Shown: in pieces, positions 37,874 to 60,147 of the stretch
How positions within the stretch are numbered: position 1 is the stretch's first letter
Layout of the letters: the number at the start of each line of letters is the position of its first letter
NCBI RefSeq assembly: GCF_021026095.1
Contig: NZ_JAJNCU010000001.1
Span: 186,001-250,000 of the forward strand
Direction: 5' to 3'
DNA length: 64,000 bases
Source: Salinicoccus halitifaciens
GTDB taxonomy: Bacteria; Bacillota; Bacilli; Staphylococcales; Salinicoccaceae
The notes under the pieces: model-generated
Seen by the model: the letters and a program-made list of their open reading frames with translations, nothing else
Databases searched by the model: none
Told to the model about the DNA's origin: nothing
Program-made: the position numbers and the translations under genes

Positions 37874-39175
37874 ATGAGTGTAAGGGAGACGGCATTTGCC
37901 GCTTATATGAAGATAATGGACGAGAAGGCCTACAGCAACATCGTCATAGATGAAGTGCTGAAGTCCGGCGAACTTTCCGGGAAAGATGCAGGGCTCTTCA
38001 CCGAGCTGATCTACGGCACGCTGTCACGGAGGCTCACGCTGGAGTTTTATCTGCAGCCGTTCCTCAGGACGAAAGTGAAGAAATGGCACAGGCACCTGCT
38101 CGAGATGGCCGCCTATCAGATGATCTACCTGGACCGGGTGCCGGCGTATGCCGTCATCAATGAAACCGTCGAGATCGCCAAGGAATACGGCGGCAGGCAG
38201 GCGGGGAACACGACGAACGCCATCCTGAGGAACCTGATGCGCGAACCGCTCCGGGATACATCGGAAATAAAAGACCCGCAGAAGAAGCTGTCGGTGGAGA
38301 CGAGCATCCCCAAGTGGATGATCAGCCACTGGGTCACGCATTACAAGGCGGAGGGGCCTGAAAGGATTGCGCAGAGCCTCACTGAAAACCCCGAGATGTA
38401 CATCAGGGTGAACTCCAGGCAGACGGATCCCGAGACACTGAAGGAAAGGCTCGCCCTTGAAGGCCATCCGGTGGAAACGACTGAGCTGCATCCGGATGCA
38501 CTCACCGTCACGAGCGGTGCGAGCATTATGAACACCGATGCCTACAGGGACGGCGATTTCAGCATCCAGGACGTGAGTTCGATGTTCGTAAACACCGCCC
38601 TCGATCCGCAGGACGGGGAAGTGATACTCGATGCGTGCAGCGCACCGGGCGGAAAGGGCCTGCATGCGCTTGAGAAGAATCCGTCCGGGCATGTCGATCT
38701 GAGCGACATCTACGATCATAAGGTGCGGACTATCGAGCGTAATGCCAAAAGGCTCAAACTCGACAACTTCGATGCCTTCAAAGGGGATGCGACAGAGCAT
38801 GAATACCCTAAGATGTACGATAAGATCATCGTCGATGCGCCGTGTTCCGGCCTCGGGGTCATCAAAAGGAAACCTGAAATCAGATACGAGCGGAACAGTA
38901 AGGACATCGACAGCCTAGTCGACCTGCAGCTCAGGATACTCGACCATGTGAAACAGTTCCTGAAACCCGGCGGCATCCTGATCTATGCGACATGCACGAT
39001 CCATCAGATGGAAAATGAAAATGTGGCATATACATTTATCAAAAGTAATGATAACTTTAAGTTTGACGAGTTTCACATTCCGGCACTGGATTTCACAGGG
39101 CCGCACCGGCAGATACTGCCACATGAATTAAATACCGACGGCTTTTTCATCGCCCGGTTCAAAAAGGATGTTTAA
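37874..39175 (+). CDS. rsmB: 16S rRNA (cytosine-967-C5)-methyltransferase
   Basis: RsmB (Sun) methylates C967 of 16S rRNA with S-adenosylmethionine. The N-terminal NusB-like domain covers about the first 130 residues. The SAM-binding [10 protein letters not shown] follows, then the two catalytic cysteines in DAPCSGLGV and [12 protein letters not shown]. In-frame ATG codons are at 37865, 37868 and 37874. The AGGA at 37862-37865 has a workable spacing only to 37874, so the 433-residue form is preferred. It is translationally coupled to fmt. Confidence 0.93.
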
Positions 39176-39176
39176 A

Positions 39177-40280
39177 ATGATTGTAAGACCCGATATAAAA
39201 CCAGTAAAAGATTTATTCCAGCCGGATTTCGATACACCGTCCGTCTATAATCTGTCGAAGGATGACCTGACTGACATCATGACGGAGTGGGGGGAGGATG
39301 CGTACCGCGGCAGCCAGGTATTCGAATGGCTGTACAGCCACCGTGTGGATGATTTCGATGAAATGAAGAACCTGCCGAAGTCCCTCCGCGAGAAACTGAA
39401 GTCGCATTACAGCATCGAACCGCTGGAGACCCTCGTCAAACAGGAGAGTGTCGACGGCACGATGAAGTTCCTCTTCAAGCTGAGGGACGGCTATACGATA
39501 GAGACGGTGCTGATGCGCCATGATTACGGGAATTCGGTATGTGTGACGACACAGGTCGGCTGCCGGATCGGCTGCTCGTTCTGTGCCTCGACGCTCGGCG
39601 GGCTGAAACGGAACCTTGAAGCAGGCGAAATCGTCTCCCAGGTCGTGCAGATCCAAAAAGCCCTCGATGAAACGGATGAGCGTGTATCAAGCATCGTCAT
39701 CATGGGCATCGGCGAGCCGTTTGAAAACTACAATCCGATGATGCAGTTCATCAGGATCGTTAACCACGATGACGGGCTGAACATCGGTGCCCGCCACATC
39801 ACGGTCTCGACAAGCGGCATCGTCCCGAGAATATATGACTTCGCAGACGAGGATATCCAGATCAATTTCGCGGTGAGCCTCCATGCACCGACGGATGAGC
39901 AGCGTTCCCGCCTGATGCCGGTCAACCGTGCGTATGACATCGAGAAGCTCATGCATTCACTGAGGTATTACCAGCAGCAGACCGGCCGCAGGATTTCATT
40001 CGAATACGGGTTGTTCGGCGGCGTCAATGACAGGAAGGAAGACGCACTGAAACTTGCGGAACTGATCGAAGATCTGAAGTGCCATGTCAACCTCATCCCG
40101 GTGAACCATGTGCCTGAGCGGAACTATGTGAGGACGAAGCGTGACGATATATTCGATTTTCTTGAAACACTCAATCATCAGGGCATCAACGCCACGGTGA
40201 GGCGTGAACAGGGGACGGACATAGATGCCGCATGCGGACAGCTGAGAGCAAAAGAATCAAAAGAAGAAACGGGGAGTTAA
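39177..40280 (+). CDS. rlmN: Dual-specificity RNA methyltransferase RlmN
   Basis: This radical SAM enzyme methylates C2 of A2503 in 23S rRNA and A37 in some tRNAs. The radical SAM cysteines are Cys129, Cys133 and Cys136 in [11 protein letters not shown]. The additional catalytic cysteine near the C-terminus is in [14 protein letters not shown] at 39164-39168 points to ATG 39177 rather than 39168. It has 367 residues. It sits between rsmB and stp, as in staphylococci. Confidence 0.95.
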
Positions 40281-40281
40281 C

Positions 40282-41028
40282 TTGGAAATCATTGACAAGA
40301 GCATTCGTGGTAAATTTCGTGAACTGAATGAAGACAGGACCGGCGTTTTTTACAATGGCACAAATCAGGTGCTGTTCCTGGTCGCGGACGGCATGGGCGG
40401 TCATGCGCACGGAGATGTGGCATCGAAATTTGTCAATGATGAGATCCAGGCGGCCTGGGAACAGGAGAACCTCATCAAAAGCGGCCAGGCGGAGGATTTC
40501 CTGCGTGAACTGGTCATCCGGACCAACCGCAGGCTGTACGACCTGCAGCATGGTCACCCGGATTACAGGGGCATGGGCACGACACTCGTGCTTGCCGCCA
40601 TCATCGAAGATGTCATATTCATACTGAATGTCGGGGATTCAAGGGCATATGTGATGCGGCGCCGTTCGATCGAGCAGGTGACGCGGGACCATTCTTTCGT
40701 CAACCTCCTTGTGGAGTCCGGCGAAATCACTGAAGAAGAGGCCCAGAACCACCCCAAAAGGAACATCATCACAAAAGCGATGGGCACCGACAGGCTGATC
40801 CAGCCGGATATATTCCGGCTCAGGAACAAGCAGTACGACTACATCCTCCTTGCATCCGACGGTCTGACGGATGTCCTCCGGGAGGATGACATCCACCGTA
40901 CGCTGTATCAGCAGAACTTAAGTCTGATGGAAAGGCTCGACTCATTGATCAGGCAGGCTGAAGATAATGCATCCAGGGATAACATAAGCGTCTGTCTTGC
41001 CGGCCTGAAAGTGGGTGCGGCAATGTGA
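40282..41028 (+). CDS. stp: PP2C-type serine/threonine phosphatase Stp/PrpC
   Basis: Stp reverses phosphorylation by PrkC. The metal-binding aspartates of the PP2C fold are visible in NEDRTG (Asp18), ADGMGGHAHGD (Asp36), SDGLTD and the C-terminal DNISVCL. It has 248 residues. The start is TTG 40282 after GGGGAG. It overlaps prkC by 4 bases (GTGA), so kinase and phosphatase are made together. Confidence 0.94.
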   Translation: MEIIDKSIRGKFRELNEDRTGVFYNGTNQVLFLVADGMGGHAHGDVASKFVNDEIQAAWEQENLIKSGQAEDFLRELVIRTNRRLYDLQHGHPDYRGMGTTLVLAAIIEDVIFILNVGDSRAYVMRRRSIEQVTRDHSFVNLLVESGEITEEEAQNHPKRNIITKAMGTDRLIQPDIFRLRNKQYDYILLASDGLTDVLREDDIHRTLYQQNLSLMERLDSLIRQAEDNASRDNISVCLAGLKVGAAM

Positions 41029-42947
41029 TAGGCAGATTACTGTCGGAACGGTACAAAATACTGAAGTACCTCGGCGGGGGGATGAGCTCCGTCTACCTTG
41101 CGGAAGATATCATATTGAACCGCAACGTGGTGGTCAAAATGATCAAGGTGGATGCTCATGATGAGGAGCGGTCGCGGCTCAGGTTCCAGCGTGAAGTCCA
41201 GAGCACGATCCAGCTCTCCCACCCGAATATCGTGAATGTCCTCGATGTGGATGAGACGGATGAGTACCAGCTGCTCGTCACCGAAGTTGTGGACGGACCG
41301 ACATTAAAGCAATATATCAAGGAGAATCATCCGATTTCAATCGAGGAGTCGGTGAATCTCGCCGTCCAGATACTGGACGGCATTGAACATGCGCACAACA
41401 GGGGCATCATCCACCGTGACATCAAGCCGCAAAACATCCTGCTGGATGGTGAGAACCGGGTGAGGATCACCGATTTCGGCATCGCCAAGGCACTCAGTGA
41501 GACAAGGATGACAGAGACCAACCAGGTCATGGGTTCCGTACAGTACATCTCGCCTGAGCAGGCAAAAGGTCAGAACACCGATGAGCGGACGGACATTTAT
41601 TCCTTCGGGATCGTTTTATTCGAACTGCTGACAGGCGAAGTGCCGTTCAGCGGGGAGACACCGGTGTCGGTCGCTCTGAAGCAGATATCGGAAAAGCTGC
41701 CGGAAATCGACGATTACAGGACGATCCCACAGGGGCTTAAGAACATCATTCTGAAATGCACCGAAAAGAAACCGGCGGACCGTTACCGTCATGTCGATAT
41801 GATCCTGGAAGACTTGAGGAAATACGACACCATCGATACACCATATATGCATACCGGTGCAGAGGACGGCTCCACGATACAGACCGGGAAAATAAAACCC
41901 GCGCCGAAGGCGGCAGCATCTTCTGCCATCGCCGCGGGGCCGCCCGAAAAGAAAAAAAGCGGATGGCTATGGCTCATCCCTCTATTGTTCATGCTCGCCG
42001 CCGCGGGACTCGGTGCTTATATGATGTTCGGCCAGGAAGAAGAAGTGACGGCCCTCACCATGCCCGACTTCCAGGGGATGTCCCTTGAGGCTGCGGAAGC
42101 GAGCCTTGCGGAACATCAGCTTGAGATGGGCGAGGTCACCGAGGAGTATAACGAGACATTCGAAGCCGGGGAAGTCGTGGAGACCAGCCCGAAGAGCGGT
42201 GCCACCGTCGAATTCGGGACTGCCGTCGACTTCATCGTAAGCGCCGGGGAAGCGCCATTCGTGATGACGGACTTCACCGGTGAGAACTTCTCCGACATCC
42301 AGCAGCAGCTGAATGAAATCAACTTCAACCGCATAGATCTGACGGAAGTGTATGCCGATGCAGAGCCCGGCACGATCCTCAGCCAGTCGATCGGGCCTGG
42401 TGAGGAAATCCGGCCGGATGAACACAATCTCCAGCTCGAAGTCTCCCGGGGCGTCGAACCGGTGGAAATCGTGAATTATGCCGGGGAGCCGTTCGAAGAG
42501 GCAAGGGATGCACTCGAACAGAACGGCTTCAACGTCGTCATTTCCCAGGAGCTCTACAGTGAAGACGTCGAACAGGGCGCCGTCATCAGCCAGGATCCGA
42601 GCTACGGCAGCTTCCTGCCCGGATCGACCATAAACCTGGTCGTTTCAATCGGTCCGGAGCCGCCTCAGAACATGCTCTATTCCACAACCGTCAATATACC
42701 GTACGGGGAGGAGGACGAGGATGATGACGGGGAGGATTCTTCGGAAGAGGCCCCGCCCAAAACCGTCAACATTCATATAGAGGATGCAAACAATCCGGAC
42801 ATCGGGGAAGTTTATGAAACTTTCGAGATCACGGAAGATACGGCACATACTGTCCGCCTTGAGATCGAACCCGGTGAGACGGGTGCGTTTATGGTGGAAG
42901 TGGACGGGGAAGAAGTAATCGATGAGGAGATACCATACGAAGAATAG
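41025..42947 (+). CDS. prkC: PASTA-domain serine/threonine kinase PrkC (Stk1)
   Basis: This is a membrane Hanks-type kinase that senses muropeptides or lipid II and regulates cell-wall metabolism. The kinase domain spans about 10-270, with the glycine loop GGGMSS (17-22), Lys38, HRDIKPQN (130-137) and DFG (150-152). A membrane segment lies at about 313-335. Three PASTA domains follow (about 343-408, 409-475 and 476-545). The C-terminus has a very acidic stretch rich in Asp and Glu (EEDEDDDGEDSSEE) and a small beta-rich domain. The start codon is GTG 41025. No terminator is visible before the P450 promoter region. Confidence 0.95.
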   Translation: MIGRLLSERYKILKYLGGGMSSVYLAEDIILNRNVVVKMIKVDAHDEERSRLRFQREVQSTIQLSHPNIVNVLDVDETDEYQLLVTEVVDGPTLKQYIKENHPISIEESVNLAVQILDGIEHAHNRGIIHRDIKPQNILLDGENRVRITDFGIAKALSETRMTETNQVMGSVQYISPEQAKGQNTDERTDIYSFGIVLFELLTGEVPFSGETPVSVALKQISEKLPEIDDYRTIPQGLKNIILKCTEKKPADRYRHVDMILEDLRKYDTIDTPYMHTGAEDGSTIQTGKIKPAPKAAASSAIAAGPPEKKKSGWLWLIPLLFMLAAAGLGAYMMFGQEEEVTALTMPDFQGMSLEAAEASLAEHQLEMGEVTEEYNETFEAGEVVETSPKSGATVEFGTAVDFIVSAGEAPFVMTDFTGENFSDIQQQLNEINFNRIDLTEVYADAEPGTILSQSIGPGEEIRPDEHNLQLEVSRGVEPVEIVNYAGEPFEEARDALEQNGFNVVISQELYSEDVEQGAVISQDPSYGSFLPGSTINLVVSIGPEPPQNMLYSTTVNIPYGEEDEDDDGEDSSEEAPPKTVNIHIEDANNPDIGEVYETFEITEDTAHTVRLEIEPGETGAFMVEVDGEEVIDEEIPYEE

Positions 42948-42974
42948 GGATATTGCGTGAATCCCATGCAAATG

Positions 42975-43005
42975 TTGGTAATCGCTGATCGCTTTATAAT
43001 ATAAT
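42975..43005 (+). promoter_or_regulatory. Candidate promoter of the P450 gene
   Basis: TTGGTA (42975-42980) precedes two overlapping TATAAT copies at 42995-43000 and 43000-43005, giving spacers of 14 or 19 bases, neither ideal. The run TTTATAATATAATG is the strongest -10-like sequence in the 90-bp gap. A good GGAGG lies before the ATG. Confidence 0.5.
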
Positions 43006-43037
43006 GAATTAGAAAACAGTTAATTGGAGGATCTTTC

Positions 43038-44312
43038 ATGGCTACTATCAAAAAAGACAAAGGTATCGACAACACAGCTAAAATAATGAAACAGGGCTAT
43101 TTGTACACCACGAACCAGCGGGAGCGTCTCGGCGTCAAAGACGGCGTATTCGAAACCCGTGCACTCGGCGGTAAGAAAATCATCATCTTATCCGGAAAAG
43201 ACGGTGCCGAGCTGTTCTATGACAACGATAAAGTGGAACGTTCGGGTACATTGCCGAAACGTGTCGTCAATACATTATTCGGTAAAGGTGCGATCCATAC
43301 GACGACTGGTAAAGTCCATATCGACCGTAAGGCACTGTTCATGTCACTGATGACGGAAGGCAACCTGCAGTATCTGCGGGAGCTGACGCGCAACCACTGG
43401 CTTATGAACACGCAGAGGATGGAAAATATGGATCAGGTCAACGTATACCGTGAATCCATCATCCTCCTGACGAAAGTCGGCACACGCTGGGCGGGTGTCC
43501 AGGCACCTGAAAAAGAGATCGAGAACATCGCGACGGATATGGACATCATGATCGACTCGTTCAAGGCAATCGGCAGTGCCTTCAAGGGCTACAGGGCATC
43601 GAAGGCAGCACGCCGCCGCGTGGAGGACTGGCTTGAAGACCAGATCATCCAGACGCGTAAAGGCAAGATCCATCCGCCGAAAGGCACAGCGCTTTATGAA
43701 TTTGCACACTGGAAAGACTACAAGGGCGAGCCGATGGATTCAAGGTTGTGCGGCATCGACCTGATGAACACATTCCGTCCGTTGATCGCGATCAACAGAT
43801 TCATCGCTTTCGGCGCCCTGGCAATGTATGAAAACCCGGTGGCGAGAGAAAAGATCAAGCAGGATGACGATTATGCCTACATGTTCGCACAGGAAGTGAG
43901 ACGTTTCTATCCATTCGTCCCTTACCTGCCAGGAAAAGTGAAAGAAGATTTTCAGTATAAAGGCTATGATTTCGAAAAGGATACGATGCTTGCGATCGAT
44001 ATTTACGGAACGATGCATGACCCGAATGTATGGGAAAACCCGAATGAGTTCTACCCGGAAAGGTTCAAGGACTGGGACGGCAGCCCGTTCGACCTCATCC
44101 CGCAGGGCGGCGGCGATTACTACACGAACCACCGCTGTGCAGGCGAGTGGATGACGGTCATCATCATGCAGGAGACGATGAAATATTTCGCTTCACGCAT
44201 CACTTACGATGTGCCTGAGCAGGATCTGACTGTTGACCTCAACAGCCTGCCTGGTTATGTGAAGAGCGGATTCATCATTGAAAATGTCCGTGAAGTCGTA
44301 GACAGGGACTAA
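43038..44312 (+). CDS. oleT: CYP152-family P450, OleT-like fatty-acid decarboxylase/peroxygenase
   Basis: This is a P450 of the peroxygenase family CYP152, which uses hydrogen peroxide and needs no redox partner. Nearly every block I remember from OleT of Jeotgalicoccus (CYP152L1) is present, from MATIKKDKGIDNT at the start to the end VREVVDRD. Key residues coincide after a 2-residue insertion: His87 (His85 of OleT, in GKGAIHT), Phe81 (Phe79), Arg247 (Arg245, in NTFRPLIAINRF, binds the substrate carboxylate) and the heme ligand Cys367 (NHRCAGEW). Hydroxylating relatives such as the Bacillus subtilis enzyme have Gln at the His position, so the predicted main reaction is conversion of Cn fatty acids to Cn-1 terminal alkenes. 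Some alpha- or beta-hydroxylation is also possible. It has 424 residues. Confidence 0.93.
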   Translation: MATIKKDKGIDNTAKIMKQGYLYTTNQRERLGVKDGVFETRALGGKKIIILSGKDGAELFYDNDKVERSGTLPKRVVNTLFGKGAIHTTTGKVHIDRKALFMSLMTEGNLQYLRELTRNHWLMNTQRMENMDQVNVYRESIILLTKVGTRWAGVQAPEKEIENIATDMDIMIDSFKAIGSAFKGYRASKAARRRVEDWLEDQIIQTRKGKIHPPKGTALYEFAHWKDYKGEPMDSRLCGIDLMNTFRPLIAINRFIAFGALAMYENPVAREKIKQDDDYAYMFAQEVRRFYPFVPYLPGKVKEDFQYKGYDFEKDTMLAIDIYGTMHDPNVWENPNEFYPERFKDWDGSPFDLIPQGGGDYYTNHRCAGEWMTVIIMQETMKYFASRITYDVPEQDLTVDLNSLPGYVKSGFIIENVREVVDRD

Positions 44313-44331: not shown

Positions 44332-44363
44332 AAAGCCTCTCCATCACCGGAGAGGCTTTCTTT
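44332..44363. terminator. Bidirectional terminator between the P450 and rhodanese genes
   Basis: AAAGCCTCTCC (44332-44342) pairs perfectly with GGAGAGGCTTT (44349-44359) around ATCACC. A run of A residues lies to the left and TTTCTTTT to the right, so it can stop transcription from both sides. Confidence 0.9.
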
Positions 44364-44674
44364 TATAATTCTTCCCGCTCACCCTCATACTCGAGGATGC
44401 CGCCTTCGACATTGACCGCGTCGTACCCCTGCTCAAGGAGTGCATGCTGGACGTTTTCGCTGCGTCTGCCGCTTCTGCACATGATATAGAGTGTGTCGTC
44501 TTTATGCTTCTTCAGGGTTTCATCTTCAATGCTGAGGGTGGACATGGGAAGGAGGATTGCACCGGGCACATAGCCGGTCTCCTTCAGTTCATCGGTTTCC
44601 CTGACGTCGATCAAAACCGCATCATCATTTTTGATGATGTCGTTTATTTCGCTTACGTGTACTGTTTTAGCCAT
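44363..44674 (-). CDS. Single-domain rhodanese-like protein
   Basis: This is a 103-residue protein consisting of one rhodanese domain. The active-site loop is CRSGRRS (Cys about residue 70), typical of sulfurtransferases that carry persulfide sulfur. ILIDVRETDE-type sequence is near the N-terminus (VLIDVRETDELKE) and a glycine-rich end follows (NVEGGILEYEG). There is no signal peptide. The ribosome site AGAAAGG lies before the ATG on the minus strand. It is convergent with the P450 gene and divergent from rsgA. The sulfur acceptor is unknown. Confidence 0.88.
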   Translation of the reverse strand: MAKTVHVSEINDIIKNDDAVLIDVRETDELKETGYVPGAILLPMSTLSIEDETLKKHKDDTLYIMCRSGRRSENVQHALLEQGYDAVNVEGGILEYEGEREEL

Positions 44675-44767: not shown

Positions 44768-45631
44768 ATGAAGAAAGGTCAGATTGTAAAAGCGTTGAGC
44801 GGTTTTTATTACGTCAAATCGGAAGACCGGATCTACCAGGCGCGCGCACGCGGCCTGTTCAGGAAGACTTCCGAGTCGCCCCTTGTAGGCGACATCGTCC
44901 GGTTCCAGATAGAAAACGAGACGGAAGGCTACATCACCGCGATCGATGAACGGAGGAATTCGATGGTGCGGCCGCCGGTGGCGAACATCGATCAGGTGCT
45001 GCTCGCCATGAGCCTGGTCTCGCCTGATTTCAATTACTATCTGCTCGACCGGTTCATCGCCTATGCGGAGGCCCAGGACATGAAGCCGGTGGTCGTCATC
45101 ACCAAGACAGATCTCGCCGGGGACGAAGCGCTGATGGCGGAGATCCGGGAAGTGTATGACATGTATCCGGTGTTCTTCACCGATAATAATAAAGTCGATG
45201 ATGAGATGCTGTCCATCTTCAAAGATAAGCTGAGTGTCCTTGCAGGGCAGTCGGGTGTCGGGAAATCGACGCTGATCAACACGATACTGCCCGGGACGGC
45301 GCTCATCACGGATGAAATTTCAAACAAGCTGAACCGGGGCAAGCATACGACCCGGCATGTCGAGTTGATTGAAATCGCCGGCGGGTACATCGCCGATACA
45401 CCGGGCTTCAGCACAATTGATTTTTCAATGATCGACAAATATAACCTGAAATCATGTTTTATAGATTTCGACGGACCGGGTGAGGAATGCAAGTTCAGGG
45501 AATGCCTCCACATCAACGAACCGAAATGCGGTGTGAAGCTGGCCGTGGAAGAGGGGCGGCTTGCAGCCTCCAGATACGAGAGTTACAAACAGATATTCGA
45601 AGAGATAGAATCCAGAAAAGAGAGGTACTGA
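44768..45631 (+). CDS. rsgA: Ribosome small subunit GTPase RsgA
   Basis: RsgA is a circularly permuted GTPase for late 30S subunit maturation. The N-terminal OB domain covers about 1-70. The G4 motif TKTD (112-115) comes before the P-loop GQSGVGKS (160-167), the diagnostic permuted order. DTPGFS is the G3 motif. The C-terminal zinc site is formed by CKFRECLHINEPKC. It has 287 residues. A region with two TATAAT sequences (44734-44739 and 44748-44753) upstream probably contains its promoter. It is followed two bases later by rpe. Confidence 0.94.
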   Translation: MKKGQIVKALSGFYYVKSEDRIYQARARGLFRKTSESPLVGDIVRFQIENETEGYITAIDERRNSMVRPPVANIDQVLLAMSLVSPDFNYYLLDRFIAYAEAQDMKPVVVITKTDLAGDEALMAEIREVYDMYPVFFTDNNKVDDEMLSIFKDKLSVLAGQSGVGKSTLINTILPGTALITDEISNKLNRGKHTTRHVELIEIAGGYIADTPGFSTIDFSMIDKYNLKSCFIDFDGPGEECKFRECLHINEPKCGVKLAVEEGRLAASRYESYKQIFEEIESRKERY

Positions 45632-45632
45632 C

Positions 45633-46277
45633 ATGAATAAAGTGCTGCCATCACTCCTTGCGAGTGATTTTTCAAGACTAGGTGAAGAAATCAGGACGAT
45701 GGAGGAGGCGGGTGCCGATATTTTCCATCTGGACATCATGGACGGCCAGTTCGTGCCGAACATATCCTACGGGCTGCCGGTCGTCGAAGCGATCAGCAGG
45801 GCATCCGGCATACCGCTCGATGTGCATCTGATGACATTGAACCCGGATCAGTTCATCGATGAATTCAAAGATTTGGGCGTGGATATGCTGTCTTTCCATA
45901 TTGAAGCGTCCGACCATCCGCACCGGGTGGTGCAGCTGATCAAGAGCAAAGGGATGAAGGCGGGCATCGCCCTGAATCCGCATACGCCGGTCTCACACGT
46001 ACAGCATCTGCTCGGCGACGTCGATTTCGTCCTGATCATGACCGTGAACCCTGGGTTCGGCGGCCAGAGCTTCATAGAGGAGGGCCTCGTCAAGATTGCG
46101 GAATTGAACAGCATCAGGCGTGAGAAGAACCTCCAGTTTGAAATCGAAGTGGACGGCGGCATCAATGATGAAACCGCAGCATTGTGCAAGGCGGAGGGCG
46201 CGGAGCTTCTCGTGAGCGGGTCCTACCTGTTCAAGGCGGAAGATAAGAAAGCCACCATCGAAGCGCTGCGTAAGTAA
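45633..46277 (+). CDS. rpe: Ribulose-phosphate 3-epimerase
   Basis: Rpe interconverts ribulose-5-phosphate and xylulose-5-phosphate in the pentose phosphate pathway. The TIM-barrel signature segments are PSLLASDFSRLGEE, LDIMDGQFVPN with the catalytic Asp, and VNPGFGGQSF. The second catalytic Asp is in EVDGGIND. It has 214 residues. The rsgA-rpe-thiN order is the common Firmicutes arrangement. Confidence 0.95.
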   Translation: MNKVLPSLLASDFSRLGEEIRTMEEAGADIFHLDIMDGQFVPNISYGLPVVEAISRASGIPLDVHLMTLNPDQFIDEFKDLGVDMLSFHIEASDHPHRVVQLIKSKGMKAGIALNPHTPVSHVQHLLGDVDFVLIMTVNPGFGGQSFIEEGLVKIAELNSIRREKNLQFEIEVDGGINDETAALCKAEGAELLVSGSYLFKAEDKKATIEALRK

Positions 46278-48276: not shown

Positions 48277-48645
48277 ATGACACTCGAAATTAAAAATGAA
48301 CTTGGATCAATCGACATCGCAATCGATGTGATAGCAAACATTGCCGGTGAAGCTGTAGTGGAAAGCTACGGTGTGGTTGGCATGGCCTCGAGGCACCAGG
48401 TGAGGGACGGTTTTGCCGAACTGCTCGGCAAGGAGAACTATTCCCGCGGTGTCGTAGTGGAAAACAATGACGGCCTTCTTGATGTCGACCTGTACATTAT
48501 CGTCGGCTACGGTGTGAAGATATCCGAAGTTGCAAATAATGTGCAGACAAGCGTGAAATACAGACTGGAAAAAACTTTTGGATTGACCATAAATACAATT
48601 AACATTCATGTACAAGGTGTCAGAATGATTAATACGGATGAGTAA
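48277..48645 (+). CDS. Asp23/Gls24 family envelope stress protein (YloU-like)
   Basis: This is a 122-residue member of the Asp23/Gls24 (DUF322) family. The domain covers nearly the whole protein, with IANIAGEAVVESYGVVGMAS at the start and VDLYIIVGYGVKISEVANNVQ in the middle. Family members sit at the membrane through partners and are linked to envelope stress. In this genomic place, before fakA, the Bacillus counterpart is YloU. Its end overlaps the open frame of fakA. Confidence 0.9.
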   Translation: MTLEIKNELGSIDIAIDVIANIAGEAVVESYGVVGMASRHQVRDGFAELLGKENYSRGVVVENNDGLLDVDLYIIVGYGVKISEVANNVQTSVKYRLEKTFGLTINTINIHVQGVRMINTDE

Positions 48646-48667
48646 GCTGGGAGGACATGATGATATC

Positions 48668-50311
48668 ATGGATAAGATAGATGGTGTAATTTTCAGAGAT
48701 ATGATTTTGACGGGTGCTGACAATTTGAGGCAGCACGCAGATTATGTTGATTCACTGAATGTTTTCCCGGTGCCTGACGGTGACACCGGTACGAACATGA
48801 ATTTATCGATGACTTCGGGTGCCGATGAAGTCAGCGGCAGGGAAATCGAACATATGGGGGAGATGGGCAGGCATTTCTCCAAAGGGCTGCTGATGGGCGC
48901 CCGCGGCAATTCAGGTGTGATCCTCTCACAGCTGTTCCGCGGGTTTTCAAAAGCGATCGAGGATGAAGAGTCGGTGGATGCGAAATCTTTCGCGGCCGCC
49001 CTCGACCAGGGTGTGAAGACAGCCTATAAAGCTGTGATGAAGCCTGTTGAAGGCACGATACTCACGGTCGCCAAAGATTCAAGTGCGACGGCCGTCGAGA
49101 AGGCTGAAACCTCCGAATCGCTGATTGAAGTGATGGAGGCGGTGATCGAGGAGGCAAAGGCGTCTTTGAAGCGTACACCGGACCTCCTCCCTGTGCTTAA
49201 AGAAGTCGGCGTCGTCGATTCCGGCGGGCAGGGTCTCGTATATGTGTATGAAGGGTTCCTCGCCGCCATGAAAGGTGAAAAGGTCGAAGTAGCCGAAGAG
49301 GCGCTCGATACCGAGACGTTCGTCAATGATGAACATGACTTCAATGAATTCATGTCCGTCGAGGACATTGAATATGGCTTCTGTACGGAGTTCATGGTAC
49401 GATTCGAAGACGGCAAGCGTGAATTTAACGAAGAAGAGTTCCGGAACGAAATGGAAGGGTTCGGCGACTCGCTCCTCGTGATCTCCGATGATGAAATCGT
49501 CAAAGTGCACGTGCATACCGAAACGCCCGGCGAAGCGATGACATACGGCGCGAGCTACGGTGAGCTGATCAAGATGAAGATCGAGAACATGCGCGAACAG
49601 TTCAGGGAAGTTCACGGCAGCAAGGCGGATACGGCGGTGAAGGAGAAGCAGTCATATGACACCGCCGTCATCACCGTATCTTCAGGAGACGGCATCAAGG
49701 CGCTGTTTGAAAGTGTCGGCGTCACACATGTCATCAACGGCGGACAGACGATGAATCCATCCACCGAAGACATACTGAATACGATCAAAGACGACGAAGT
49801 GAAGCAGGTCATCATCCTGCCGAACAATAAAAACATCATCATGGCGGCAGAGCAGGCCCAGCAGATGCTGGACATCCCCGCAGTCGTCATCCCGACCACA
49901 TCAATCCCGGAAGGACTTTCCAGCATGCTGATGTTCTCCCCTGACGGGTCGCTCGAACAGAATGAAGAAGCGATGAAGGCCGCACTCGAGCATGTGAAGA
50001 CCGGACAGGTGACCTACGCCGTGCGCGACACCAAAATCGACGGCATAGAGATCAAAAAGGACCAGCATATGGGCATCAACAACGGCAAGATCGATGTCGC
50101 CTCCGACTCCCGGAGCGAGACGCTCGAGAACCTCATCGTCAGCATGCTTGATGAGGATGCGGAGATCGTCACGGTGATCATTGGTGATGAAGGCTCTGAG
50201 GACGAAGTCGATGCGATTGTGGAAAAGCTGGAAGACAGCTATAATGATATTGAATTTGAGATTCACGACGGTCAGCAGCCGGTCTACAGTTACCTTGTAT
50301 CTGTAGAGTAA
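48668..50311 (+). CDS. fakA: Fatty acid kinase subunit FakA
   Basis: FakA is the ATP-binding subunit that phosphorylates FakB-bound exogenous fatty acids for entry into phospholipids through PlsX/PlsY. The N-terminal DhaL-like domain has FPVPDGDTGTNMNLSM, the Mg/ATP aspartate motif, and LLMGARGNSGVILSQLFRG. The middle DegV-like and C-terminal domains follow. It has about 547 residues. The frame opens at ATG 48638, but ATG 48668 gives the N-terminus MDKIDGVIFRDMI seen in homologues; GGGAGG at 48649-48654 is 13 bases away, somewhat long. No fakB gene is in the window. Confidence 0.93.
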   Translation: MDKIDGVIFRDMILTGADNLRQHADYVDSLNVFPVPDGDTGTNMNLSMTSGADEVSGREIEHMGEMGRHFSKGLLMGARGNSGVILSQLFRGFSKAIEDEESVDAKSFAAALDQGVKTAYKAVMKPVEGTILTVAKDSSATAVEKAETSESLIEVMEAVIEEAKASLKRTPDLLPVLKEVGVVDSGGQGLVYVYEGFLAAMKGEKVEVAEEALDTETFVNDEHDFNEFMSVEDIEYGFCTEFMVRFEDGKREFNEEEFRNEMEGFGDSLLVISDDEIVKVHVHTETPGEAMTYGASYGELIKMKIENMREQFREVHGSKADTAVKEKQSYDTAVITVSSGDGIKALFESVGVTHVINGGQTMNPSTEDILNTIKDDEVKQVIILPNNKNIIMAAEQAQQMLDIPAVVIPTTSIPEGLSSMLMFSPDGSLEQNEEAMKAALEHVKTGQVTYAVRDTKIDGIEIKKDQHMGINNGKIDVASDSRSETLENLIVSMLDEDAEIVTVIIGDEGSEDEVDAIVEKLEDSYNDIEFEIHDGQQPVYSYLVSVE

Positions 50312-54642: not shown

Positions 54643-55830
54643 TCATTTTTCCTCGGCGAGCCGCCTGAGTTCGTCCCTTGTATCCTTCGGCAGTCCTTCG
54701 CCGTAATCCATCATCCTCACGATATCCTTGAATGCGGCTTCCGGTATCTTCAGATCGTCGATTTCATCGACCGTGAACTGGAGGTCGATTTCATCTTCAC
54801 GGCCTGATGCGAGTTTTGAGACGAAGTCGGGTTCTGTGATGAACGGGGTCGAAGCGCCGACCATATCGGCATGTTCAAGCGCTTCAAGCGCCTTGTCGGG
54901 GTCGTTGATGCCGCCTGTCGCCATCATCGGGATCCTGCCCCTGACATGGTCGTAGACGACTTTATTGACCGGCTCGCCCTGGTTCGGCCCTTCGGCGCGG
55001 ACCGTCGTCTTATAGATGTTCCTGCCCCAGCTTGCGATGGCGAGGTAGTCGATGTCGGCAATCTCCTCCGCCATATCGATGAACTGCAGGAATTCATCGA
55101 CGGTGTATCCCACTTCCTGCCCGCGCGTCTCTTCCGGCGTGCCCCTGAAGCCGAAGATGAAGCCTTCCGGCGCTTCTTCTTTTATGACATCGGCGACCGC
55201 CTGTATCACTTCGAGCCCGAAGCGGGAGCGGTTTTCAAGTGTCGCGGCACCGTATTCATCCTCCCGTTCATTTGAAAACTTCGAGAAGAAGGTCTGGATG
55301 AGGAGGCGCTGTGCCGCCGAGACTTCGACACCGTCGAAGCCTGCCTTGATCGCGCGTCTTGCGGCATCGGCATAATCCTGGACGACCATATCAATCTTCC
55401 GTTTCGTCATCGGCAGCACCTGGTGCTTGACGGGCACGTTCAGTTCCATGAAGCTCGGGCCGTATACGGTGCCGAGGTCGAGTATCGCCTGGTTCGAGAA
55501 GCGCCCGGCATGAGTGAGCTGCAGCACCGCTTTTGCCCCGTCCTGCTTCATCGCATCCGCAAGCCGCTTCAGGCCCGGTATCGTCCGGTCATCGCTCACG
55601 CTGAACCCGTACTCGAAAAGCTGGCCGTAAGGTTCGATGTATGCAGCCCCCGTCACCTGGATCGGGGCAGAGCCTGCACGCCGGGCATGGTAGAGTACGT
55701 CCTCTTCGGTGACAAGCCCCTCCCTGGTCGATGAGTTGGTGATCACCGGCGAGAGGACGAAGCGGTTATCGAGCCGGATGCCGTTCTTCAGGACGAGTGG
55801 TTCGAATAAAGGTGCATATTTACTGTTCAT
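54643..55830 (-). CDS. Old Yellow Enzyme family NADH:flavin oxidoreductase
   Basis: This is a TIM-barrel FMN oxidoreductase of 395 residues without an iron-sulfur extension. It is recognised by the N-terminal LFEPLVLKNGIRLDNRFVLSP, VLQLTHAGRFSN, and GVEVSAAQRLLIQTFFSKFSN. The conserved EYGAATLENRSRF block and the C-terminal FMN-phosphate segment (MMATGGINDPDKALE) are present. Enoate or other electrophilic alkenes are likely substrates. An AAAGGAG ribosome site and a TTGACA-17-TAATTT promoter lie in the shared spacer with the divergent LLM operon. Similar oxidoreductases accompany SirTM operons, so functional coupling is likely. Confidence 0.88.
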   Translation of the reverse strand: MNSKYAPLFEPLVLKNGIRLDNRFVLSPVITNSSTREGLVTEEDVLYHARRAGSAPIQVTGAAYIEPYGQLFEYGFSVSDDRTIPGLKRLADAMKQDGAKAVLQLTHAGRFSNQAILDLGTVYGPSFMELNVPVKHQVLPMTKRKIDMVVQDYADAARRAIKAGFDGVEVSAAQRLLIQTFFSKFSNEREDEYGAATLENRSRFGLEVIQAVADVIKEEAPEGFIFGFRGTPEETRGQEVGYTVDEFLQFIDMAEEIADIDYLAIASWGRNIYKTTVRAEGPNQGEPVNKVVYDHVRGRIPMMATGGINDPDKALEALEHADMVGASTPFITEPDFVSKLASGREDEIDLQFTVDEIDDLKIPEAAFKDIVRMMDYGEGLPKDTRDELRRLAEEK

Positions 55831-55877
55831 CTCTTGACTCCTTTAATTTTTCATCTGTTCTTGAATCGTCAACTTCA

Positions 55878-55906
55878 AAATTAGCAATAGAACGGATTTA
55901 TGTCAA
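55878..55906 (-). promoter_or_regulatory. Promoter of the OYE gene
   Basis: On the minus strand TTGACA (55906 to 55901), a 17-base spacer and TAATTT (55883 to 55878) form a good promoter reading toward the OYE gene. Confidence 0.72.
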
Positions 55907-55922
55907 TGTGAAACGGTTCTAT
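55887..55922. promoter_or_regulatory. Inverted repeat, candidate operator shared by OYE and SirTM operon promoters
   Basis: ATAGAACGG (55887-55895) and CGGTTCTAT (55914-55922) are inverted with one mismatch around 18 bases. The left arm overlaps the OYE spacer and the right arm lies just before the -35 of the LLM promoter, so a single regulator could act on both. Confidence 0.55.
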
Positions 55923-55925
55923 GGA

Positions 55926-55954
55926 TTGACGGTTAAATTGTGCAAAGCTATAAT
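55926..55954 (+). promoter_or_regulatory. Promoter of the LLM-GcvH-L-macro-SirTM-LplA2 operon
   Basis: TTGACG (55926-55931), a 17-base spacer and a perfect TATAAT (55949-55954) form a strong promoter 43 bases before the LLM start codon. Confidence 0.82.
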
Positions 55955-55996
55955 GGTGTATAAATATGTGAAATAAATACCAAAGGATTTGTATGG

Positions 55997-57016
55997 ATGA
56001 TAAAACTGAATGTCTTGGATTATGCCGTCGTGGATGAAGGCCGGTCGCCGGCGGAGGCTCTCTACGAAACGGCCGCATTGTGCAAAAAGGCTGAAGCTTT
56101 GGGTTACCACAGATTCTGGATTGCGGAGCATCATGATGTGAGCGCTTTTGCGAGCAGCAGTCCCGAAATGCTGATGATGCACCTCCTGGGGCAGACGGAT
56201 TCGATCAGGCTAGGTTCCGGAGGGGTCATGATACCGCACTACAGCCCGCTCAAAGTCGCGGAAAACTTCAGGATGCTTGAAACCCTCCATCCCGGCCGGG
56301 TGGACCTCGGCTTCGGCAATACGATCGGCACGAAGATCGTCAACAAAGCGATGAACGAAACCCGTCCGAGGAAGCAGCGTTATGAGGAGAACATCAGCGA
56401 CATCGTGAAGTACGTGGCGAACACCGACGATCCGGAGCACCGCTTCAATGACCTGACGGCAAACCCCGCAGGCGGCACGAACCCGGAGATGTGGATGCTC
56501 AGCACGAGTGTGAAGTCGGCGATGACCGCTGCGCGCCTCGGGGTCGGTTATGTCTTCGGCCTGTTCCCATATGCATCAAAGGATAAGATGGCAGTCGGAC
56601 GGGAAGCCATCCGTGTCTACAGGGAGAATTTCCGGCCCTCCGCCGTCATGGAAAAACCCATGGTGATGGCAGCACCTTTCGTCGTCGCGGCGGACACCGC
56701 GGAAGAAGCGGACCGGCTCGCGGAGGCGCTGGGCCTCTGGCTGCTCGGCAAGGACAATTTCAGCGAATTCGACCGCATGCCATCGGTTGAAACTGCCGCG
56801 GATTATCCTTATACTGAAACAGACAGGAAAAGGATCGAGGATAACCGCACACGGATGATCGTCGGGGATAAAAAGGGTGCGGCCGCCGGACTTTCATCCA
56901 TTGCCGGGACCCTGGATGTGGATGAGCTGCTCATCATCCCGCTCATACCCGGGGCAGGAAACCGTGCGCACGCACTTGATCTGATCGCGTCGGAGTTAAA
57001 AATATCAAACAATTAG
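55997..57016 (+). CDS. LLM class (luciferase-like) flavin-dependent oxidoreductase
   Basis: This is a luciferase-like monooxygenase or reductase of 339 residues, a TIM-barrel FMN/F420 fold. Recognisable segments are RFWIAEHHD, the GSGGVMIPHYSP loop, ALKVAENFRMLETL-type sequence and the LHPGRVDLGFG block. It is the first gene of the SirTM operon and is followed after 15 bases by the GcvH-like gene. Luciferase-like enzymes are reported next to SirTM genes in pathogens and may generate or remove a lipoyl-sensitive oxidant; the substrate is unknown. AAAGGAT precedes ATG 55997. Confidence 0.85.
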   Translation: MIKLNVLDYAVVDEGRSPAEALYETAALCKKAEALGYHRFWIAEHHDVSAFASSSPEMLMMHLLGQTDSIRLGSGGVMIPHYSPLKVAENFRMLETLHPGRVDLGFGNTIGTKIVNKAMNETRPRKQRYEENISDIVKYVANTDDPEHRFNDLTANPAGGTNPEMWMLSTSVKSAMTAARLGVGYVFGLFPYASKDKMAVGREAIRVYRENFRPSAVMEKPMVMAAPFVVAADTAEEADRLAEALGLWLLGKDNFSEFDRMPSVETAADYPYTETDRKRIEDNRTRMIVGDKKGAAAGLSSIAGTLDVDELLIIPLIPGAGNRAHALDLIASELKISNN

Positions 57017-57031
57017 AAAGCAGGGTAATAA

Positions 57032-57364
57032 ATGAGGAAAGTTGCAAATTACTTATGGATTGAAAAAAACGGTGAAGAATATAAGCTGATCATGACGCCT
57101 GAGCTGCAGGACGATATCGGGACGGTCGGATTCGTCGAGTTCACGAAGGAAAAGAGCCTGAAAAAAGACGACTCCATACTCGAGCTTGAAGGTTCCAAAA
57201 CAGTATTGGATCTGACGACGCCGATCGCGGGCGAAGTCGTGGCAGTCAACGAAAAAGCGGCGGATACACCGGAGCTTTTGAATTCGGCCGATCCGGACGA
57301 GAGCTGGGTCGTAAAACTGACAGGCGTCGATGAAGCTGAATTCAATGCACTTGAAAATGCATAA
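57032..57364 (+). CDS. gcvH-L: GcvH-like lipoyl carrier protein (GcvH-L)
   Basis: This is a 110-residue lipoyl-domain protein related to the glycine cleavage H protein but specific for SirTM operons. The presumed lipoyl lysine is Lys56 in ELEGSKTVLDL, in the hairpin turn of the lipoyl domain. An aspartate in ELQDDIG (residue 27 or 28) corresponds to the position reported, as I recall, to be ADP-ribosylated by SirTM in homologues. It is followed by a hairpin with a T-run before the macrodomain gene. It would be lipoylated by the LplA2 encoded downstream. Confidence 0.9.
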   Translation: MRKVANYLWIEKNGEEYKLIMTPELQDDIGTVGFVEFTKEKSLKKDDSILELEGSKTVLDLTTPIAGEVVAVNEKAADTPELLNSADPDESWVVKLTGVDEAEFNALENA

Positions 57365-57385
57365 TCAATCTTAGCATTCGATTTT

Positions 57386-57432
57386 TAAGCTTGCATTCAA
57401 ATGTCACGGCATGGGATGCAGGCTTATTTTTT
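57386..57432 (+). terminator. Hairpin with T-run between GcvH-L and macrodomain genes
   Basis: TAAGC, T, TGCAT (57386-57396) pairs with ATGCA, G, GCTTA (57416-57426) through a T-G wobble, and six T residues follow (57427-57432). It resembles an intrinsic terminator inside the operon and would reduce expression of the three downstream genes relative to GcvH-L. Confidence 0.6.
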
Positions 57433-57450
57433 AAGGATCAGGTGATATAT

Positions 57451-58221
57451 ATGATGTCTCAACTACAAAGGCTGCATTTCCTGATTTCGCATATGCAGCA
57501 GGAAATGGACGAAAATGAGCCAGTACCGGAGAGTTTCGATGAACGCTTCCAGATGTTCAGGGGGCTTGCCAACCGCCGCCCGGCAAAACCACTATCCCGG
57601 GAGTTCCTCGATGTGCAGGATGCGTTCCTCGGCACTTATAACTCAGAGGGTGTCACGGCCGTAAGCGACCTCACACCGGTCCGGGACCGGCTCTATTTAT
57701 GGCAGGGCGACATTACGACACTCAAGGCCGGTGCAATCGTCAATGCGGCGAACCCGGACATGCTCGGCTGCTTCATCCCGAACCATGACTGCATCGATAA
57801 CATCATTCATACGAAGGCGGGTGCGGCGCTGCGCCTGGAGTGTGCGGAACTGATGGAGCGGCAGGGCAGGAAAGAGGCGGTCGGGCGTGCGAAGATCACT
57901 TCTGCGTACAATCTGCCGGCAGATCACGTCATCCACACCGTCGGGCCTTACGTCCAGGACGGCAGGGTCTCCAGGATGAAGGAGGACCTGCTCCGAAGGT
58001 GCTACATGAGCTGTCTTGCGCTCGCTGATGAAAAGGATGTCGGCAGCATCGCCTTCTGCAGCATCTCGACAGGGGTGTTCGGCTTTCCGAAGGAACGGGC
58101 GGCGGAAATCGCAGTCGATGCGGTCACGGATTATTTAAAGGACAGCGGTTCCCGCCTCGAAGTCATCTTCAACGTGTTTGACGATGAGGATCTGAAAATT
58201 TACGAATCACATTTAGCTTAG
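57451..58221 (+). CDS. Zinc-containing macrodomain ADP-ribosyl hydrolase (MacroD-like)
   Basis: This is the macrodomain protein of the SirTM operon, which removes ADP-ribose from modified protein. An N-terminal helical extension (about 1-75) precedes the macrodomain. Asp87 (WQGDIT), Asn98 and Asn101 (IVNAANP) contact ADP-ribose. Cys107, His112 and Cys114 ([10 protein letters not shown]) are the zinc ligands typical of this subclass. The GVFGFP loop is present. The frame is open from TTG 57391, but ATG 57451 follows AGGTG and gives 256 residues. It is followed by SirTM after 16 bases. Confidence 0.9.
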
Positions 58222-58237
58222 GAAGGGTCGTTTCTTT

Positions 58238-59119
58238 ATGGAAAATTGGCATACTTTAAAATCAGAGAAGGATGAAAGCCGTCTGCTCGCGGGGATGATC
58301 GACGAAGCGGATGCGATCGTGGTCGGCATCGGTGCCGGGATGTCTGCGGCTGACGGGTTTACATATACGGGTAAGCGCTTTACGGAGAACTTCCCGGATT
58401 TCATAGGCAAGTACAAATGGTTCGACATGCTCCAGGCGAGCCTCTTCGACTTTCCGACGCGGACGGAGTACTGGGCGTTCCAGAGCCGCTTCGTCGAGCT
58501 GAATTATCTGGATCAGCCGGCGGGTGAGGGATACATCGCCCTTAGGAAGATGATCGAAGACAAGGATTACCATGTCATCACGACGAATGCCGACAACGCA
58601 TTCTATGCGGCGGATTACGATATGGACAAGGTGTTTTATTACCAGGGCGAGTATGCACTTTGGCAGTGCTCCGCCTTCTGCCACCAGCAGACATACCGCC
58701 ACGATGATCAGATCCGTGAGATGGTCCGGGTCCAGAAGGATATGGAAATCCCGCCGGAACTCATTCCGCGCTGTCCGGAATGCGATGCGCCGATGGAAAT
58801 CAACAAGCGCACTGCGGAAAAAGGCATGGTGGAGGATGCGGCCTTCGAAGCGGACCGGCAGAAGTATGAGGCTTTCCTCGAAGCGCACAAATCGGGCAAG
58901 GTGTTGTACCTGGAGATCGGGGTCGGCTACACGACACCGCAGTACATCAAGCATCCATTCTGGAGGATGACGCGCCAGAACAAGGATGCGGTCTATGTCC
59001 CGATGAACCAGAAGACATACAGGATCCCGGAGGCGGTGAGGCCGCAGACCGTGGCGCTGACCGGGGACATACAGGAGAATATATTGAATGCATATAAGAC
59101 ATTAACATATAAAGGATGA
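58238..59119 (+). CDS. sirTM: SirTM: class M sirtuin, protein ADP-ribosyltransferase
   Basis: SirTM is an NAD-dependent sirtuin that mono-ADP-ribosylates lipoylated GcvH-L rather than deacetylating proteins. The Rossmann NAD segment is [14 protein letters not shown] (28-41). The TTNADN motif has Asn117. The catalytic His of ordinary sirtuins (HG) is replaced by Gln136 in [11 protein letters not shown], the hallmark of the M class. Zinc cysteines are Cys144, Cys148, Cys179 and Cys182. It has 293 residues. It sits between the macrodomain gene and the lipoate ligase gene with 16- and 5-base gaps. Confidence 0.92.
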
Positions 59120-59124
59120 TTTGA

Positions 59125-60147
59125 ATGTATCTGATAGAACCCTACAGGAACGGTGAATACATCACCGACGGCGCCTATGCACTGGCGATGCAGGTCTATG
59201 TCCAGCAGAATGTGTTCCTGGATGACGGCATCATATTCCCATATTACTGCGCGCCTAAAATCGAAATCGGACGTTTCCAGAATGCGGCCTCCGAAGTCAA
59301 CCAGGACTACCTGGATGAAAACGGCATCATTCTGGTGAGGCGGGACACAGGGGGCGGTGCGATCCTCGTCGATGACGGTGCGGTGAACGTCTGCTTCCTC
59401 GTCCCGGAAGACAGCGGCGTGTATGGGGACTACAAGAAGATGTACGAACCGGTCATACGGGCACTCAACAACCTCGGTGTCAAAAACGTCGAACAGAGCG
59501 GCAGGAACGACCTGGTCATCGATGGTAAGAAAGTATCCGGTGCAGCCATGACGCTCTCAAGCGGCCGGGTATACGGCGGTTTCTCACTGCTCCTCGACAT
59601 CAACCCGGAGGCGATGGTCAAGGCGCTGAACCCGAACCGCAAAAAGATCGATTCCAAAGGCATCAAATCCATCAGATCAAGGGTGACGACGCTGAGGGAG
59701 CACCTCGCGCCGGAGTACAGGGATGTCACGACAGCGGAGTTCAAGGACCTCATCATCAAGGAACTGCTGCAGATCGATGACGTGGACAAAGCAAAGCGTT
59801 ACGAACTGACAGATGAAGACTGGCAGGCGATCGACCGCCTGGTGGAGGAGAAGTACAAGAACTGGGACTGGAACTACGGGAAGTCACCGCGCTACTCCTA
59901 TAACCGGGACGGCAGGCTCCAGGCGGGCACCGTGGAGATCTCCCTCGATGTCGAATCCGGCAGGATCGAAAACTGTTCGATCCACGGGGATTTCTTCGGA
60001 CAGGGCGAAATCAAAGATGTGGAGGAGGCACTGAAGGGCGCTCGCGTCGAGCGCGGTGAGCTTGAAGAGACCCTCCGGCCGCTCGACCTCAACCACTATT
60101 TCGGGAAGCTCGAAGATCGGGAACTCGTCGACCTGATATTAAGCTGA
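59125..60147 (+). CDS. lplA2: Lipoate-protein ligase LplA2 of the SirTM operon
   Basis: LplA2 activates free lipoate and attaches it to GcvH-L, the precondition for ADP-ribosylation. The BPL/LplA fold motifs are VRRDTGGGAILVD (lipoyl-AMP loop), GRNDLVIDGKKVSGAAM with Lys136 as the catalytic lysine, and a C-terminal lipoate-ligase domain (about 250-340). It has 340 residues. It begins 5 bases after SirTM and is followed by a hairpin terminator. Confidence 0.92.
   Translation: MYLIEPYRNGEYITDGAYALAMQVYVQQNVFLDDGIIFPYYCAPKIEIGRFQNAASEVNQDYLDENGIILVRRDTGGGAILVDDGAVNVCFLVPEDSGVYGDYKKMYEPVIRALNNLGVKNVEQSGRNDLVIDGKKVSGAAMTLSSGRVYGGFSLLLDINPEAMVKALNPNRKKIDSKGIKSIRSRVTTLREHLAPEYRDVTTAEFKDLIIKELLQIDDVDKAKRYELTDEDWQAIDRLVEEKYKNWDWNYGKSPRYSYNRDGRLQAGTVEISLDVESGRIENCSIHGDFFGQGEIKDVEEALKGARVERGELEETLRPLDLNHYFGKLEDRELVDLILS

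Follow-up and report, generated by a model that had tools for sequence, protein, structure and literature searches.

An OleT-type (CYP152L) fatty-acid decarboxylase gene kept behind prkC in Salinicoccus halitifaciens and its relatives

A gene for a fatty-acid cytochrome P450 stands between prkC and rsgA in a block of core genes of Salinicoccus halitifaciens, and we asked whether it arrived recently as an accessory gene or belongs there. In the stretch of 64,000 nucleotides analysed here (hereafter the window), Pfam matches give the order rlmN (39168–40280, plus strand; RlmN_N and Radical_SAM), stp (a PP2C phosphatase; 40282–41028, plus; PP2C), prkC (a PASTA-domain Ser/Thr kinase; 41025–42947, plus; Pkinase and PASTA), oleT (43038–44312, plus), a rhodanese gene on the minus strand, rsgA (44768–45631, plus; RsgA_GTPase), rpe (45633–46277, plus; Ribul_P_3_epim) and thiN. 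This is the order given in a preliminary description of the DNA, except that the latter had missed the small gene between oleT and rsgA, which encodes a single-domain rhodanese-like protein of 103 aa (44363–44674, minus; Pfam Rhodanese, 1.1e-14). The same description took the P450 for an OleT-type decarboxylase and its gene for an insertion into the block; our results bear out the former and contradict the latter. We consider it highly probable that the gene encodes an OleT decarboxylase that has anciently stood behind prkC, has been inherited vertically under constraint, and is highly expressed from its own promoter, rather than being a recent accessory. The enzyme itself is already known and is found here in the organism group where it would be expected; what is useful is the evolutionary frame, and the new observations are the top codon adaptation of its gene and an S41-peptidase-like gene upstream of oleT in sister groups.

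The enzyme and its relatives

The open reading frame fills exactly 43038–44312 on the plus strand, starts with ATG behind a good ribosome-binding site (GGAGG, 43026–43030) and encodes 424 aa. It resembles OleT far more closely than chance would allow: in phmmer searches the best solved structure was PDB 9JQM chain B (975 bits, full length), followed by OleT_JE (4L40, 763 bits), and Pfam p450 matched at 2e-18, while the NCBIfam CypC model scored 508, below its cut-off of 600. The first of these structures is OleT_LA of Lacicoccus alkaliphilus, which has been crystallised and assayed as a fatty-acid decarboxylase (PMC12284513). The window protein has 417 out of 424 residues in common with it, as with the protein encoded in the L. 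alkaliphilus genome, where the gene (locus L033) occupies the same chromosomal place; the seven substitutions relative to that genome copy (M17A, A42G, K47R, I95V, Y264H, N330D and V374I) leave all named catalytic residues the same, and both proteins carry I178 where OleT_JE has L176. OleT_JE (CYP152L1) of Jeotgalicoccus sp. ATCC 8456 also has the same named catalytic residues and is 75% identical, above the 60% identity to OleT_JE that served as the inclusion criterion for a published tree (PMC6452516); relative to it the window protein has two additional residues near 34–35. A third characterized relative is OleT_SQ (CYP152L8) of Salinicoccus (Lacicoccus) qingdaonensis, whose species' gene, aligned in place of the published accession, is 92% identical. 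Among other named relatives, Salinicoccus kekensis reaches 98%, as does L. alkaliphilus (genomes G005 and G002, both in the window's genus), six more Salinicoccus (five of them named species, one uncultured) reach 79–81%, Jeotgalicoccus and Phocicoccus 74–77%, and four Staphylococcus species 58–60%.

A tree of 89 CYP152 proteins (quick search, no bootstrap; 19 out of 21 paralogues used, two short fragments being omitted) united the 53 oleT rows, including that of the window, with OleT_JE at an SH-aLRT of 100. A long-branch warning for this tree touches the sister group of the OleT clade, not the content of the clade. The CYP152A and CYP152K references compared, BS-beta (CYP152A1, PDB 1IZO) and CYP152K6 (PDB 6FYJ), fall outside it. 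These two share the fold family and the equivalents of Arg, Pro, Cys and Phe79 with the window protein, but are only ~41% identical to it and have Gln for His87 and Ile for Met243. Near-identity to the assayed OleT_LA, together with the place inside the OleT clade, makes it close to certain that the window enzyme would decarboxylate free fatty acids to 1-alkenes in vitro, and the sequence identifies it as a CYP152L (OleT) P450.

Phe81, His87, Met243, Arg247, Pro248 and Cys367 are all present, and Phe81, His87, Arg247, Pro248 and Cys367 align with OleT_JE 79, 85, 245, 246 and 365, confirming the constant shift of two noted before; R247, P248 and C367 supply the active-site Arg-Pro pair and the Cys thiolate ligand of CYP152 peroxygenases. 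It had further been proposed that Phe81, His87, Arg247 and Cys367 separate decarboxylases from hydroxylases. We counted residues over 86 CYP152 rows (53 oleT, 19 paralogues and 14 other Bacilli copies), and know of no assays for the paralogues and the other Bacilli copies among them. Equivalents of Arg247 and Cys367 occur in 86 out of 86 rows, and that of Phe81 in 53/53 oleT rows, 15/19 paralogues and 12/14 other Bacilli copies, as well as in BS-beta and CYP152K6, so that these three are common to CYP152 hydroxylases too. His87 fares better, occurring in 53/53 oleT rows, but it is an imperfect separator, being present also in 3/19 paralogues, 1/14 other Bacilli copies and CYP152T1 of Kocuria (PMC5818669), which is listed among hydroxylases (PMC12284513). 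Met243 (OleT_JE 241), found in 53/53 oleT rows versus 0/33 others, is the cleaner OleT marker in the set compared.

By analogy to OleT_LA and to OleT_SQ, for which 91% 1-tridecene from C14 is reported (PMC6452516), the enzyme would use H2O2 to turn free saturated fatty acids into 1-alkenes, with minor alpha- and beta-hydroxylation, and by analogy to OleT_JE, Arg247 would bind the carboxylate, with His87 nearby and Cys367 as the thiolate; the role of the histidine as proton donor is disputed, and a review doubts it for His85 (PMC5818669). One might ask whether the protein acts in the cell mainly as a fatty-acid hydroxylase. With C10, C12 and C14 acids, hydroxylation accounts for more of the output of OleT_LA than of OleT_JE, and C18 yields one hydroxylated peak with OleT_LA (PMC12284513); three of the four residues cited earlier, moreover, do not discriminate. 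However, alkenes are the major products of OleT_LA with H2O2 from C14 and C16 acids (PMC12284513), and the window protein lies within the OleT clade, so a mainly hydroxylating role appears very unlikely. Less improbable, though still doubtful, is that the electrons come in vivo from a ferredoxin or flavodoxin system instead of H2O2, as CYP152s can be driven by a ferredoxin/ferredoxin reductase system both in vitro and in vivo (PMC12284513). Against it, the review deems the H2O2 route likely to be physiological (PMC5818669), and no gene for a redox partner was found among the ten oleT neighbours scanned. The absence of such a partner had been read as agreeing with peroxygenase chemistry; it does agree, but says little, since OleT enzymes work with redox partners too (PMC12284513).

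Position across the order and descent

We surveyed 157 genomes of the order, which we take to be Staphylococcales, comprising the window's family (f1) and three others (f2 to f4); g8, g10, g12, g13 and g14 are genera of f3, of which g8 is Staphylococcus by its named loci. A CYP152 match at an E value of 1e-40 or better was found in 73 out of 157 genomes, and since two of these matches were of the paralogue type (37–39% identity), we count 71 genomes with oleT. It is present in 33/33 genomes of f1, 1/1 of f2, 9/9 of g10, 6/6 of g12, 8/8 of g13 and 1/1 of g14, in 13/84 Staphylococcus genomes (a total obtained by difference), and in none of the 15 genomes of f4. One Staphylococcus-group copy, which partly reads N, enters the count of genomes with oleT but not the trees; its in-frame extra segment at first had the appearance of an intein-type insertion, a reading that we set aside as the segment reads as N.

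The prkC stop codon lies 63–90 bp before the oleT start in 33 out of 33 genomes of the family, with the window at 90 bp (42948–43037, plus). Among the 38 loci of f2 and f3, prkC lies upstream of oleT in 37, and in 36 rsgA follows at a distance of no more than 7 kb; the loci that deviate either run into a contig end or, in one genome, have rsgA elsewhere. In locus L064 (genome G079), oleT and prkC are together and rsgA is ~760 kb off on the other strand, that is, a rearrangement broke the locus downstream of oleT. The prkC-oleT interval has no extra genes in the loci of the window's family, unlike the oleT-rsgA interval, which carries them in several of these genomes (an additional ~1.6 kb in L039 and 3.6 kb in L043). 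The rhodanese gene also follows oleT in many loci of the family and in loci of g10, g12 and g14.

In Staphylococcus loci without oleT, prkC lies within ~1.4 kb of rsgA in 17 out of 18, and the remaining stretch has no prkC match. No oleT remnant was recognised in 20 loci lacking the gene, four weak tblastn matches having E values of 0.024 to 5. Loss is the simplest account of these empty sites, a gain of oleT elsewhere by exchange of its flanks being the less likely alternative.

Descent was examined with an oleT tree of 53 out of the 71 copies and a neighbour tree of stp, prkC, rsgA and rpe, both quick searches without bootstraps. All 19 oleT splits with an SH-aLRT of at least 95 were recovered in the neighbour tree with no conflicts; at a threshold of at least 80, 27 out of 30 were recovered, and no supported split of the neighbour tree spoke against any of them. 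The dS of oleT against L. alkaliphilus is 1.10 (0.81–2.54 for six neighbours). Since dS above 1 is near saturation, it excludes recent transfer only; a value like that of the neighbours indicates that oleT has been in place as long as they have, as far as near-saturated dS can tell.

Selection was tested on five pairs (rlmN against L. alkaliphilus, thiN against strain YB14-2, and prkC, rsgA and thiN against S. halodurans were uncomputable), and oleT is under strong purifying selection. Its dN/dS is 0.008 against L. alkaliphilus (six neighbours, 0.036–0.097), 0.031 against L. qingdaonensis (seven neighbours, 0.055–0.145) and 0.028 against YB14-2 (six neighbours, 0.031–0.110). In two pairs a neighbour equals or exceeds it in constraint: against S. 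kekensis, oleT has 0.034 but stp only 0.011, while against S. halodurans, rlmN (0.046) is level with oleT (0.049), the three other computed neighbours having 0.096–0.158.

The hypothesis of a recent horizontal transfer into the prkC-rsgA interval, which corresponds to the insertion proposed in the preliminary description, draws on the absence of oleT from most Staphylococcus genomes, on the closeness of prkC and rsgA in 17 out of 18 such loci, and on the promoter-like box and hairpin that the gene has of its own. It is nonetheless extremely unlikely. If the gene had come recently, close relatives might lack it at the site, its codon usage or dS might deviate, and its tree might conflict with that of its flanks; instead, no genome of the family lacks it there, prkC precedes it in members of three families, its codons are biased towards those of ribosomal genes, its dS is neighbour-like, and no supported tree conflict was found. 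In addition, the best match outside the order is 45% identical (among 398 genomes sampled from the class, part of which belong to the order), and in 14 loci from outside the order, with ~1.5 kb of flank each, neither prkC, rsgA nor another window neighbour stands beside a CYP152 gene. Synteny, dS and trees thus contradict a recent insertion. Homologous recombination in the flanking core genes might instead have carried oleT from family to family at an early stage, so that position and tree would agree without strictly vertical descent. This is harder to dismiss, because the flanks are conserved, which makes flank-mediated replacement possible, and because ancient events are beyond exclusion by single-gene trees. 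However, the oleT tree and the neighbour tree recover the genera in the same way, with no supported conflicts, and the genes directly beside oleT differ between families (16 loci), which makes an exchange of flanks between families unlikely; we consider this route very improbable as well. Under the vertical descent that we favour, oleT would already have stood behind prkC in the common ancestor of the window's family and two sister families, and would have been kept since then by strong purifying selection.

Promoter-like box, hairpin and codon usage

It had been suggested that oleT has its own promoter-like region and a terminator. In the window, TTGGTA at 42975–42980 precedes two overlapping TATAAT boxes at 42995–43000 and 43000–43005, and the spacing of 14 or 19 bases leaves the exact −10 uncertain. 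A TTGG box, then a TATAAT-type box and a GGAGG-like site are kept between prkC and oleT in the family; counted by eye, the TTGG(C/T)(A/G) form occurs in 32 out of 33 genomes, with one variant, and in Jeotgalicoccus the TTGG box lies directly behind the prkC stop codon. A generic consensus promoter scan of the window returned 2 sites versus 2.6 expected from shuffles, none of them on the plus strand at oleT, so the suggestion of a promoter draws on the conservation of the boxes and not on the scan. We propose that oleT is probably transcribed from this conserved promoter. The terminator is in a similar position: a terminator-like hairpin with a T-rich tail does lie at 44332–44359 (plus), between the convergent oleT and rhodanese genes, but such sites are no commoner in the window than in shuffles (3 found versus 2.9 expected). 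No RNA family was found in the 64-kb window at gathering scores.

Codon adaptation was computed against the ribosomal-protein genes of the same genome for the 54 window ORFs of at least 120 aa, picked mechanically so that a few may be spurious. With a value of 0.702, oleT ranks first (the next two have 0.661; the ribosomal mean is 0.722). When the same protein was re-encoded with codons sampled from 52 of the other ORFs in the window, the mean was 0.571 (sd 0.019), and 0 out of 2000 draws reached 0.702 (z 6.9). Across 21 genomes, oleT is first among 5–8 locus genes in 14: 9/10 in the window's family, 1/1 in f2, 2/2 in g13, 1/1 in g12, 1/4 in Staphylococcus, 0/2 in g10 and 0/1 in g14. The bias is strongest in the window's family, where oleT is always kept; g10 and g14 keep it in 10 out of 10 genomes without such bias. 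As codon bias is a proxy for expression, its nearness to the ribosomal level suggests that oleT is a core enzyme and would be highly expressed.

A second CYP152 gene of the window's genome (L002:649–1995; same contig, ~134 kb before oleT) is 41% identical to oleT, and its codon usage is at background (z −0.1). At the positions of OleT_JE 79, 85 and 241 it carries Leu, His and Asn. Its clade, which also takes in the copies of two members of the genus and one from a more distant Bacilli genome, is placed as sister group of the OleT clade, with long branches. Second CYP152 copies in three genomes of the family (L126, L131 and L133; 35–38% identical) have an in-frame stop in two (TAG and TGA) and are in pieces in the third, unlike the oleT matches of the family, none of which has a stop.

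Neighbouring genes and possible role

In the sister groups, oleT is immediately preceded, on its own strand, by a gene with a profile match in 25 out of 25 genomes of f2, g10, g12, g13 and g14. Fourteen of these genes, taken in full, have 288–401 codons (e.g., L063:5071–5937 and L058:4970–5863). The gene is absent from the oleT locus in the window's family, the window included; 13 out of 33 genomes of the family encode a distant homologue at some other place (that of the window has none), and the profile search gave no match in Staphylococcus genomes. Pfam found no family above its cut-off in seven of the oleT-adjacent proteins, and the assignment to S41 was made via homologues elsewhere, four of which matched Peptidase_S41 (6e-15 to 3e-18), and by alignment. 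Where the homologues have CASA, CGSA or CGSS, with the Ser that we take to be the catalytic one of S41 peptidases, the oleT-adjacent proteins read TKGS or similar, the expected serine being replaced by Gly in 6 out of 7 rows and by Gln in the g13 row. PDB profile matches were weak, the best being retinol binding protein 3 (0.0057), an S41-like lipid carrier. That the upstream protein is a lipid-binding partner of OleT would be a guess.

Another user of free fatty acids is encoded 4.3 kb downstream of oleT by fakA (48638–50311, plus), the fatty acid kinase catalytic subunit (Pfam FakA-like domains; NCBIfam FakA_VfrB at 6.5e-255 but below its curated cut-off, YloV above its own), and fapR, plsX, fabD and fabG follow at 60303–63479. 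Firmicutes that lack oleT commonly have this fatty-acid block as well, and oleT may therefore lie near it by coincidence. Somewhat less surely than its descent, we speculate that in vivo OleT may drain free fatty acids, from a pool also used by FakA, together with H2O2, and that it may release volatile or membrane-soluble alkenes.

Taken together, a fixed position, strong purifying selection, near-ribosomal codon usage and a promoter box kept across the family speak for alkene formation being of importance to these bacteria. It is tempting, though at present tentative, to see in OleT an ancestral, highly expressed housekeeping peroxygenase of the order with the exception of f4, ancestrally coupled to the serine-less S41-type protein and lost in most Staphylococcus. 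If this were true, core membrane or oxidative physiology would include either terminal alkenes or the joint removal of free fatty acid and peroxide. A literature search on gene order or the physiological role of OleT returned, among the matches listed, enzymology, reviews and unrelated papers, which does not amount to absence; in two OleT papers and one review, words beginning with "physiolog-" occur 0, 0 and 1 times. Staphylococcus species with and without oleT make the role of alkene formation directly testable.

Further downstream, the interval between recG and fapR (54643–60147) encodes an OYE-type oxidoreductase (minus strand), a luciferase-like monooxygenase, a macrodomain ADP-ribose hydrolase, a lipoate-protein ligase, a 110-aa protein that by eye resembles a GcvH-like lipoyl carrier, and a 293-aa protein without a family match, which from its position is presumably a SirTM-type sirtuin. 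This segment looks like a SirTM-macrodomain redox module set into a core block.
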